A stretch of DNA of 64,000 nucleotides from a bacterium (GTDB lineage Bacteria; JAMCPX01): NCBI GenBank assembly GCA_021787665.1, contig JAJYLN010000003.1:80502-144501 (forward strand), written 5' to 3'. The position numbers were made by a program, and so were the translations under genes. Shown here piece after piece: positions 23,222 to 54,468 of the stretch (within the stretch, counting starts at the first letter, position 1; each line of letters starts with the position of its first letter). The notes under the pieces are model-generated. The model made no database searches. It worked only from the letters and a program-made list of their open reading frames with translations, and was not told where the DNA came from.

Positions 23222-23470
23222 TCAGCCGGCCCTGTCGGCTTTTTTCCGGATTTTTGTGGAGTATTCTCTGAGTGCGGTATTGATAAGGGTCTGGTATCCG
23301 ATCTTTGTCTCTGTTGCGAGCTTCTTAAAGAGAACTATCATATCATTATCGATTCTTATAGTCGTGGAAACCTTCTTGGGCACATAAAATCTGCCTCTTA
23401 TACCTTTTGAAAGATCATAGTCCTTCTTGAACGTGAGATCTTCCTTCTCTTTAATGGTTACTTTCTTCAT
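23222..23470 (-). CDS. brnA: BrnA-like ribbon-helix-helix antitoxin
   Basis: An 82-residue protein with a C-terminal RHH/CopG-like segment: KVSTTIRIDNDMIVLFKKLA then TKIGYQTLINTALREYS. BrnA antitoxins bind and neutralise BrnT and repress the operon through the RHH domain. The start lies 20 bp inside the end of the preceding toxin gene, the standard BrnT-BrnA order. Codon use is more A/T-rich than neighbouring genes, suggesting horizontal acquisition. Confidence 0.85.
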   Translation of the reverse strand: MKKVTIKEKEDLTFKKDYDLSKGIRGRFYVPKKVSTTIRIDNDMIVLFKKLATETKIGYQTLINTALREYSTKIRKKADRAG

Positions 23471-23744
23471 ATTGTTTGCACTCCCTTGTCGTAGCTTGCC
23501 TTACTATTATTATTTTTATGTGTTCTTCCCCGTCCCCGGTGAGAAAGTAGAGATGACCGACAGCGATAACCTTGCCTTTAGGGGTAGCCCCAAAAGTGAT
23601 CCATCTTTCAGAAAAATAGTCGAATCGCTTATCGAGAATAGAAATATGCAGCGGATCATCGAACACCGTCCTTGCTTCTGCAAGAGATATCGCATGCTTG
23701 TTACGGTTGCTTTTGATCTCGCTCGTATCCCACTCAAACAACAT
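23451..23744 (-). CDS. brnT: BrnT-type ribonuclease toxin
   Basis: A 97-residue RelE-fold RNase toxin. It matches the BrnT pattern: FEWDTSEIKSNRNKHAISLAEA near the N-terminus, FDDPLHISILD, SERWITFGATPKGKVIAVGH and the C-terminal RQATTRECKQYEE that corresponds to the usual SAR-A-T-x-x-E-R-x-x-YE signature. The usual first Arg-Ile-Ile-Ser-Ala motif is modified to IKIIIVRQAT, so activity may be altered. The ATG has no ribosome binding site and lies close to the predicted promoter, so translation may be leaderless. Confidence 0.87.
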   Translation of the reverse strand: MLFEWDTSEIKSNRNKHAISLAEARTVFDDPLHISILDKRFDYFSERWITFGATPKGKVIAVGHLYFLTGDGEEHIKIIIVRQATTRECKQYEESNH

Positions 23745-24210: not shown

Positions 24211-24239
24211 TTGTTAAAACGCCTGGCATGCTTTATACT
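24211..24239 (+). promoter_or_regulatory. Putative mnmG promoter
   Basis: TTGTTA (24211-24216), a 17-base spacer and TATACT (24234-24239; five of six consensus matches) form a good sigma-70 promoter. The predicted transcript would start near 24246, so the parS site lies inside its leader. Confidence 0.6.
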
Positions 24240-24265
24240 AGAAATCCGAAACGGTACAACGAATA

Positions 24266-24281
24266 TGTTTCACGTGAAACA
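24266..24281. promoter_or_regulatory. parS centromere site
   Basis: TGTTTCACGTGAAACA is a perfect 16-bp palindrome identical to the canonical chromosomal parS bound by ParB/Spo0J. It ends 2 bp before the mnmG start codon and takes the place where a ribosome binding site would be. parS sites cluster around chromosome origins and mnmG (gidA) is classically origin-linked, so this window may lie in the origin-proximal domain. No parA, parB or rsmG is present. Confidence 0.93.
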
Positions 24282-24283
24282 GT

Positions 24284-26179
24284 ATGAAGAACGTCGACTT
24301 TGACGACCTCTATGACATTATCGTGGTGGGTGCGGGCCATGCAGGTATAGAGGCCTCGCTCGCCGGCGCGCACATGGGATGCACGGTACTCTTGCTCACC
24401 GGCAACCTCGACACGATAGGCTATATGTCCTGCAATCCAGCCATCGGCGGACTTGCAAAGGGCCATCTTGTCAGGGAGATAGATGCGCTGGGCGGACAGA
24501 TGGCGAAGACGACCGACTTCGCCGGCATGCACTTCAGGAGACTGAACACGAATAAAGGCCCTGCCGTGCGAGGCAACAGGGCGCAGTGTGACAGGGTCAT
24601 GTACCGTACCGGTATGAAGACGGTCATAGAGCAACAGGAAGGCATAGACCTGAAACAGGCGACCGTGACCGGCCTTATCACAGAGGGAAAGGCCATCAAA
24701 GGGGTCGAGACGTCCTTAGGGCTCAGTTTTTTTGGCAAGACGGTCGTTCTCACGACCGGGACCTTCCTGAACGGGCTTATCCATATAGGGCTTACTCACT
24801 TTCCGGCCGGACGGGCAGGAGAGCCCCCCTCTATCGGCATATCGGACAGCCTGAGACAGCTCGGCTTTACTATAGGGAGGCTGAAGACCGGGACCACCCC
24901 GCGCCTCGATGCAAAAACGATCGATTTCTCTGCCCTCGAGCCCCAGTACAGCGATAACCCTCCGATACCATTTTCTTTCTCCACGGAGAAGATAACAAAT
25001 CCCCTTATCGCCTGTTACATGACCTACACCAATGAGCAGGCCCATGCCTTTATCCTATCCGGGCTGGACCGCTCGCCGCTCTATTCTGGTATTATCAAGG
25101 GGGTGGGTGCGCGCTATTGTCCTTCTATCGAAGATAAAGTTGTGAAATTTAAAGATAAATCAAGGCACCAGATATTCCTCGAGCCTGAAGGCTACAACAC
25201 GAAAGAGGTATACCCCAATGGCCTCGCCACAAGCCTGCCGTACGACATCCAGCTCAAGATGCTACGGGCGATAAAGGGATTGGAAGAAGTCGAGATTATG
25301 AGGCCGGGTTATGCGATAGAGTACGACTTCGTGGAGCCGACCCAGATCTACCCCACGCTCGAGACAAAGCACGTGAACGGTCTGTACCACGCCGGTCAGA
25401 TAAACGGGACTTCCGGCTATGAAGAGGCCGGGGCACAGGGGCTTGTAGCAGGCATAAACGCAGCCCTGCGGGTCAGGAAGGAGCAGCCCCTCATCATAAC
25501 GCGCCAGCAGGCATACATAGGGGTACTGATCGACGACCTCGTAACGAAGGGCACCCAGGAGCCCTACAGGATGTTTACCTCCAGGGCAGAACACAGGCTC
25601 GTCCTGCGGGAGGACAACGCCGACATCCGGCTCTGCGATATCGGCAGGTCCATAGGGCTGCTGAGCAAGAAGGACTATGCGCTCTTTCTCCAGAGGCGCG
25701 ACCAGCGCAATGAGGTGCTGGCCAGGCTGCAATCTTCAAGGGTCAAAGGGGAGCGCGCCCGGGAGGTACTCAGGCAAACAGGTTATGCGGATCTATCCGA
25801 TACGACGACGCTCTATCAGCTCCTCAAGCGGCCAAACATAACCATCAAACATCTCGAGTCCCTGGAGCCTTCCCTCGTGCACGCGGACAGAGCCATAAAG
25901 GACGCGATAGAGGTCGAGGTGAAGTATGACGGCTATATCAAAAGGGAGATAGAGTTCATCCACCGGCTCTCCAGGCTCGAAGATACGAAGATCCCGGAGG
26001 GTTTTTTCTATAATACCATACCCGGGCTATCCACGGAGATAAAGGAGAAGCTCGGAAGGTTCAAGCCGGTAACCCTGGGCCAGGCATCCCGCATCTCCGG
26101 CATAACGCCGGCAGCCATAGCCATCCTCGATGTCTATATAAGAAGATATCGGACGGGCTATTCTGCAAGTACAAAATAG
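24284..26179 (+). CDS. mnmG: tRNA uridine-5-carboxymethylaminomethyl modification enzyme MnmG
   Basis: MnmG (GidA) with MnmE modifies U34 of several tRNAs, using FAD and, usually, 5,10-methylene-THF. The 631 residues have the N-terminal dinucleotide fold DIIVVGAGHAGIEASLAGA, the GGLAKGHLVREIDALGG motif, PPIPFS, GPRYCPSIEDK-like GARYCPSIEDKV, NGTSGYEEAGAQGLVAGINAA and TSRAEHRLVLREDNAD, all typical. The ATG has no ribosome binding site because parS lies directly upstream. rsmG, the usual neighbour, is absent; the 3' end overlaps the convergent DUF35 gene by 22 bp. Confidence 0.97.
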   Translation: MKNVDFDDLYDIIVVGAGHAGIEASLAGAHMGCTVLLLTGNLDTIGYMSCNPAIGGLAKGHLVREIDALGGQMAKTTDFAGMHFRRLNTNKGPAVRGNRAQCDRVMYRTGMKTVIEQQEGIDLKQATVTGLITEGKAIKGVETSLGLSFFGKTVVLTTGTFLNGLIHIGLTHFPAGRAGEPPSIGISDSLRQLGFTIGRLKTGTTPRLDAKTIDFSALEPQYSDNPPIPFSFSTEKITNPLIACYMTYTNEQAHAFILSGLDRSPLYSGIIKGVGARYCPSIEDKVVKFKDKSRHQIFLEPEGYNTKEVYPNGLATSLPYDIQLKMLRAIKGLEEVEIMRPGYAIEYDFVEPTQIYPTLETKHVNGLYHAGQINGTSGYEEAGAQGLVAGINAALRVRKEQPLIITRQQAYIGVLIDDLVTKGTQEPYRMFTSRAEHRLVLREDNADIRLCDIGRSIGLLSKKDYALFLQRRDQRNEVLARLQSSRVKGERAREVLRQTGYADLSDTTTLYQLLKRPNITIKHLESLEPSLVHADRAIKDAIEVEVKYDGYIKREIEFIHRLSRLEDTKIPEGFFYNTIPGLSTEIKEKLGRFKPVTLGQASRISGITPAAIAILDVYIRRYRTGYSASTK

Positions 26180-35380: not shown

Positions 35381-35452
35381 CTCCTCGGGCAGGGCTCGAA
35401 CCTGCAACCCTTCGGTTAACAGCCGAATGCTCTACCATTGAGCTACCGAGGA
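35381..35452 (-). tRNA. tRNA-Asn (GTT)
   Basis: Minus-strand 72-nt cloverleaf. Acceptor TCCTCGG pairs with CCGAGGA, D-stem GCTC/GAGC, anticodon stem TTCGG/CCGAA with loop CTGTTAA (anticodon GTT), T-loop TTCGAGC and discriminator G. The CCA end is not encoded. A terminator follows. Confidence 0.97.
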
Positions 35453-42660: not shown

Positions 42661-42760
42661 GGATAGCCAGGTTTTCCGTGACTTGAACAGTGTTGCTACC
42701 GTTGCTTCCTCTCGGATCTGGCGGGTTCACAGCTTATTCAAACACAGGACCCGGCTACCA
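42661..42760 (-). ncRNA. ffs: Signal recognition particle RNA (small bacterial 4.5S type)
   Basis: On the minus strand the apical domain reads GTGAACCCGCCAGATCC then GAGAGGAAGCAACGG, matching the conserved SRP RNA symmetric and asymmetric loops and GNRA-like tip. The outer ends pair: GGTAGCCGGG with CCTGGCTATCC. The ~100-nt length is normal for the small SRP RNA. It binds Ffh and targets nascent membrane proteins. Ends are estimated from pairing. Confidence 0.9.
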
Positions 42761-54390: not shown

Positions 54391-54468
54391 TGGTCGGGGC
54401 GATAGGATTTGAACCTACGACACCTTGGCCCCAAACCAAGTGCTCTATCCAGGCTGAGCTACGCCCCG
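54391..54468 (-). tRNA. tRNA-Pro (TGG)
   Basis: Minus strand. Acceptor CGGGGCG pairs with CGCCCCG, D-arm GCTC/GAGC, anticodon stem CTTGG/CCAAG with loop TTTGGGG (anticodon TGG), T-loop TTCAAAT, discriminator A and an encoded CCA (54393-54391). Contrast tRNA-Asn at 35.4 kb, which lacks the encoded CCA. Confidence 0.97.

Follow-up and report, generated by a model that had tools for sequence, protein, structure and literature searches.

The window analysed here is a 64-kb stretch of a bacterial draft genome. It contains mnmG, also termed gidA, which is preceded by a perfect 16-bp palindrome that matches the parS consensus. The elements of the leader and the gene are the following.

24211–24239, plus strand: sigma70-like promoter match, with −35 TTGTTA (24211–24216), a spacer of 17 bp and −10 TATACT (24234–24239); 9/12 consensus positions
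24265–24303, plus strand: out-of-frame mini-ORF MFHVKQYEERRL, beginning on parS and overlapping the mnmG start; read from the sequence
24266–24281, palindromic: parS, TGTTTCACGTGAAACA; sole copy in the assembly and kept in 6/6 genomes of the phylum with an mnmG 5ʹ end
24274–24277, plus strand: GTGA within parS, which weakly complements the 16S tail and is alone in doing so upstream of the mnmG ATG; −2.4 kcal/mol with a short tail
24275–24277, plus strand: in-frame TGA within parS, beyond which the mnmG frame does not extend upstream; read from the sequence
24284–26179, plus strand: mnmG, tRNA U34 carboxymethylaminomethyl-modification enzyme; TIGR00136 E 7e-259, PF01134 E 2e-161

By its profile matches, the ORF from 24284 is MnmG beyond doubt, and its start can lie no earlier than this position because the TGA at 24275–24277 closes the frame. 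The palindrome is followed by GT and then by the ATG, a spacer of 2 bp, just as the initial annotation had described for a perfect parS in the mnmG leader. Directly upstream of the mnmG promoter, and pointing away from it, is a BrnT/BrnA-type toxin-antitoxin pair (23222–23744, minus strand; PF04365 E 1.2e-16, PF14384 E 1.4e-10). Elsewhere in the window are a bacterial small SRP RNA (42662–42756) and two tRNA genes (35381–35452 and 54394–54468), all on the minus strand.

Within the window, 24266–24281 is the only match to parS at up to three mismatches. A scan of the entire 2.25-Mb assembly (35 contigs, 92.7% complete) for further copies at up to two mismatches likewise returned this one site before mnmG, leaving a single parS in the assembly. 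The phylum was sampled through nine genomes of one family, of which six contain the mnmG 5ʹ end. All six have exactly one parS each (at most one mismatch), although the genomes are drafts and further sites could lie in their gaps. The distance from parS to the mnmG ATG is 2 bp in five of them and 3 bp in the sixth (G007), and the distance from the −10 element to parS varies. The remaining three genomes, which are 80–87% complete, contain neither the mnmG 5ʹ end nor parS. Because the DNA further upstream differs between relatives and fails to align, while parS is nearly invariant, the site stands out as a true conserved island. The site itself is an ordinary parS; what is unusual, and conserved, is that it always occupies the place normally taken by a ribosome-binding site. 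No description of a parS at the start of mnmG was found in the open-access literature.

The palindrome varies at one base. Three of the six genomes have TGTTTCATGTGAAACA, in which the central CAC is replaced by CAT, the T falling on the sense strand of mnmG in each case. Among 35 listed one-mismatch sites of other phyla, the change affects the outer base in 17, is T5C in 12, is the central C8T in 5 and is T3C in 1, and in one genome (G220) a perfect parS and a C8T site are 1 kb apart. As C8T is thus also among the variants tolerated elsewhere, the CAT form is plausibly a working parS rather than a product of decay. Among the matches listed, enrichment of the central C-to-T class is of weak significance (P = 0.014).

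The proteins expected to act on such a site are encoded in the source genome. ParB was identified by profile (TIGR00180, E 1.6e-53) on contig C28, and directly before parB is a 266-aa ORF recognised as ParA by its KGGVGKTT Walker motif. The rsmG gene is on C15 and mnmG on C6, so that mnmG does lie apart from rsmG, parA and parB, as had been annotated. ParB is found in all nine genomes of the phylum, once as a fragment. When the DNA-contacting residues are mapped to Caulobacter numbering by motif, a mapping that is itself inferential, the equivalents of R173 and G201 (GKDR and PGHAR motifs) are kept in 8/8 aligned ParBs. These two residues are absolutely conserved in ParB and set parS-specific ParB apart from Noc (PMC7383237). 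A Noc-type binding site was ruled out because the palindrome is of the parS type, as are the residues with which ParB contacts DNA. The position of the DNA-contacting Caulobacter S172 is occupied by D in all eight aligned proteins (L110–L117), an exchange that might relate to the tolerance of the central CAT.

The site is also close to the presumed origin of replication. On single contigs, dnaA and parS are 5 kb (G007) and 18 kb (G003) apart. Two further distances reach across contig ends and are estimates. In G008, the ORF that follows dnaA, by position dnaN, closes the contig with parS, and dnaA opens the next one, which would give about 29 kb; in the source genome, synteny with contig C1 of G008 joins the end of C6 to the start of C3, which would place parS about 45 kb from dnaA. 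Clusters of DnaA boxes were found upstream of dnaA in G007 only, and no clean sign of an origin could be read from GC skew. The mnmE gene adjoins dnaA in four genomes (G000, G003, G007 and G008). In G007 it shares the strand of mnmG and lies 3.3 kb upstream of it, and in G001 the MnmE C-terminus is encoded about 4 kb upstream of mnmG. These positions fit an ancestral order mnmE–parS–mnmG that was later split.

The element is therefore very probably a genuine, origin-proximal, single-copy chromosomal parS that serves a ParABS system as its centromere from within the mnmG 5ʹ leader. Every feature of a parS that can be examined in the sequences is present, and the assignment is built on the palindrome, the absence of a second copy from the assembly, ParA, the ParB contact residues, the nearness of dnaA and the conservation in six genomes. 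The D at the position of S172, the imperfect palindrome in three of six genomes and the uninformative GC skew weigh against it. The suggestion that the site simply marks the region of the origin has the best support, with a single site, ParA and a parS-type ParB encoded in the genome, distances of 5–45 kb to dnaA (two observed and two estimated) and conservation in 6/6 genomes. Binding, a function in segregation and the use of CTP would follow from membership in the ParB family: ParB would recognise the palindrome, close as a CTP-dependent clamp and spread, and ParA, probably together with SMC, would act on the ParB–parS complex so that new origins are separated. When the ancestral mnmE–parS–mnmG cluster beside dnaA was split, the site probably stayed with mnmG. 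For a whole little-known phylum, the site provides a clear marker of the origin as well as one predicted centromere, and it would be a natural case of a ParABS system run from one parS embedded in a gene leader.

Sites in other phyla bear on how parS came to lie at this place. In 7/377 genomes of other phyla, parS lies 38–68 bp before the MnmG GxGHAG motif, and a control with the reversed pattern gave none in 386 genomes. In four of these seven sites, the preceding bases read as the end of MnmE (FCIGK or FCVGK). At further loci, genes were named by eye from ORFs with recognisable motifs rather than by HMM searches. Gaps of 2, 11 and 20 bp separate parS from mnmG at L184, L183 and L209, respectively. 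A gap of 2 bp recurs before an mnmE-like start at L198 (G107:C305, a CAT-type site in another phylum) and before parA at L197 and L199, which belong to one family. At four loci (L191, L210, L212 and L226), parS is found 1–17 bp before rsmG-like ORFs. Location of parS beside these origin genes is thus recurrent, and the 2-bp abutment extends beyond this phylum. Because parS elsewhere is often upstream of mnmG, usually in the gap between mnmE and mnmG, it may have been kept with mnmG by descent rather than recruited for control. As mnmE–parS–mnmG is seen in more than one phylum, it seems that parS can move together with the gene pair. A MAG of the Desulfuromonadaceae (L005:6575-6590) has two perfect parS copies, one separating mnmE from mnmG and the other inside the mnmG coding sequence. 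At L200, L191 and L210, A plus parS reads MFHVKQ or MFHVEQ and can form an rsmG-like N-terminus; the annotated gene starts may be wrong there.

The position of parS relative to the promoter raises the question of whether ParB also affects mnmG. A promoter described earlier as good does match at 24211–24239; its quality is limited (9/12), although a TATAMT hexamer is found 25–41 bp before parS in 6/6 genomes of the phylum. Transcription would start near 24246, about 20 bp upstream of parS, and across the six genomes parS would lie at about +19 to +35. This geometry agrees with the proposal that bound ParB would sit on the transcription path of mnmG. As a secondary effect of the centromere, ParB at approximately +20 to +35 could hinder RNA polymerase and mildly lower mnmG expression.

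A stronger form of this idea holds that the place of parS was selected so that ParB blocks early elongation on mnmG, linking the level of MnmG, and with it tRNA U34 modification, to origin segregation or copy number. The position at about +20 to +35 from the predicted start in 6/6 genomes and the 2–3-bp gap to the ATG, kept in all of them despite a varying distance to the −10 element, speak for it, as do precedents for ParB control at gidB of M. bovis BCG (PMC2346475) and at parS3/parS4 of P. aeruginosa (PMC7022226, PMC5521831). However, genes beside parS are unchanged in B. subtilis without Spo0J (PMC7022226), and in other phyla parS is near mnmE, rsmG or parA, or farther from mnmG. Since parS elsewhere adjoins varied genes at varied distances, proximity to the origin explains its placement without regulation, and selection for such a block is rather unlikely. 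Coupling of tRNA modification to segregation, as the initial annotation had proposed, is possible through a ParB block on mnmG transcription and would be compatible with the centromere reading. If ParB occupancy alters mnmG expression, origin segregation and tRNA modification would be directly linked.

Translation initiation at mnmG must be accommodated by the same few bases. The earlier statement that no Shine-Dalgarno sequence is possible was right in substance: the only complementarity at a suitable distance from the ATG is the weak GUGA, which can pair with UCAC of the 16S rRNA. In each of the six genomes, the mnmG leader pairs with the anti-Shine-Dalgarno tail at −2.1 to −2.4 kcal/mol, and the lack of a Shine-Dalgarno sequence is thus a conserved property. 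The random median is stronger (−2.9 kcal/mol), and 20 of 26 ortholog-supported starts in the source genome reach −4.5 kcal/mol or better. With a longer 16S tail and a bulge, pairing through GUGA amounts to −5.3 kcal/mol. That parS itself weakly assists mnmG initiation through GUGA is speculation; under the centromere reading, a start without a Shine-Dalgarno sequence would be a tolerated consequence of where parS is placed. Quite improbable is a full merger of the single centromere with the mnmG initiation region, in which one element would be ParB loading site, roadblock and, through GUGA and 16S UCAC, stand-in for the ribosome-binding site, and mnmG output would track ParB occupancy of the origin. 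Were this true, the sites 2 bp before mnmG, mnmE and parA (L184, L198, L197/L199) would point to a general pairing of parS with start codons.

Two further readings attribute the conserved letters to a peptide or an RNA structure rather than to ParB. In the first, ATG TTT CAY GTG AAA CAS would encode a leader peptide (MFHVKH/Q) that brings ribosomes to the mnmG start. An A does precede parS in 6/6 genomes, and both substitutions (CAC/CAT and CAC/CAG) are at third codon positions, and the T is consistently in the mnmG sense strand; the sample of six is small, however, and the central C-to-T change needs no codon explanation because it is a tolerated parS variant elsewhere. Moreover, the tail after MFHVKH/Q and the position of the stop are not conserved, in G007 the overlap is displaced by an insertion of 1 bp, and the mini-ORF is without a Shine-Dalgarno sequence in 5/6 relatives. 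Leader-peptide control is thus very unlikely and was rejected on account of the variable tail and the ribosome-binding site absent in 5/6; the mini-ORF MFHVKQYEERRL is probably a by-product of the parS sequence. In the second, the palindrome would form an RNA hairpin beside the start codon that tunes mnmG translation. The predicted fold has a 6-bp stem and a 4-base loop, and it is in this loop that the one variable base of the 16-mer is found; the stem is invariant and offers no covariation to score. However, the leader does not exceed shuffled sequence in stability (z 0.25), the hairpin alone contributes −3.9 kcal/mol and no Rfam family matches near 24.2 kb. With neither excess stability nor an Rfam match, a structured RNA leader was rejected as very unlikely. 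Finally, a chance palindrome without a role is extremely unlikely, given about 0.0005 exact copies of the 16-mer expected in 2.25 Mb, its preservation in six genomes next to a promoter region that varies, and the empty reversed-pattern control.

Among known systems, the predicted centromere most closely resembles the origin-proximal parS of the B. subtilis type, with which it shares the 16-mer TGTTTCACGTGAAACA, a nearby dnaA, encoded ParA and ParB, and parS-type contact residues. Most species have several parS sites (PMC7022226). The site described here departs from this norm in being single, in lying 2–3 bp before the mnmG ATG, in having parAB elsewhere than adjacent, and in the central CAT found in half of the sites. 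In M. bovis BCG, a parS overlaps the −10 element of the promoter of gidB (rsmG), and control of transcription by ParB was proposed (PMC2346475). That site likewise lies in the 5ʹ region of an origin-proximal gene for RNA modification, whereas the site before mnmG is downstream of the promoter, in the position of the ribosome-binding site. In P. aeruginosa, parS3 and parS4, upstream of PA0011 and PA0013, repress adjacent promoters (PMC7022226; PMC5521831). As intergenic parS sites whose occupancy represses the downstream gene, they offer a model for ParB on mnmG, although in P. aeruginosa several sites are clustered, other genes are involved and repression was measured, whereas at mnmG it is predicted.
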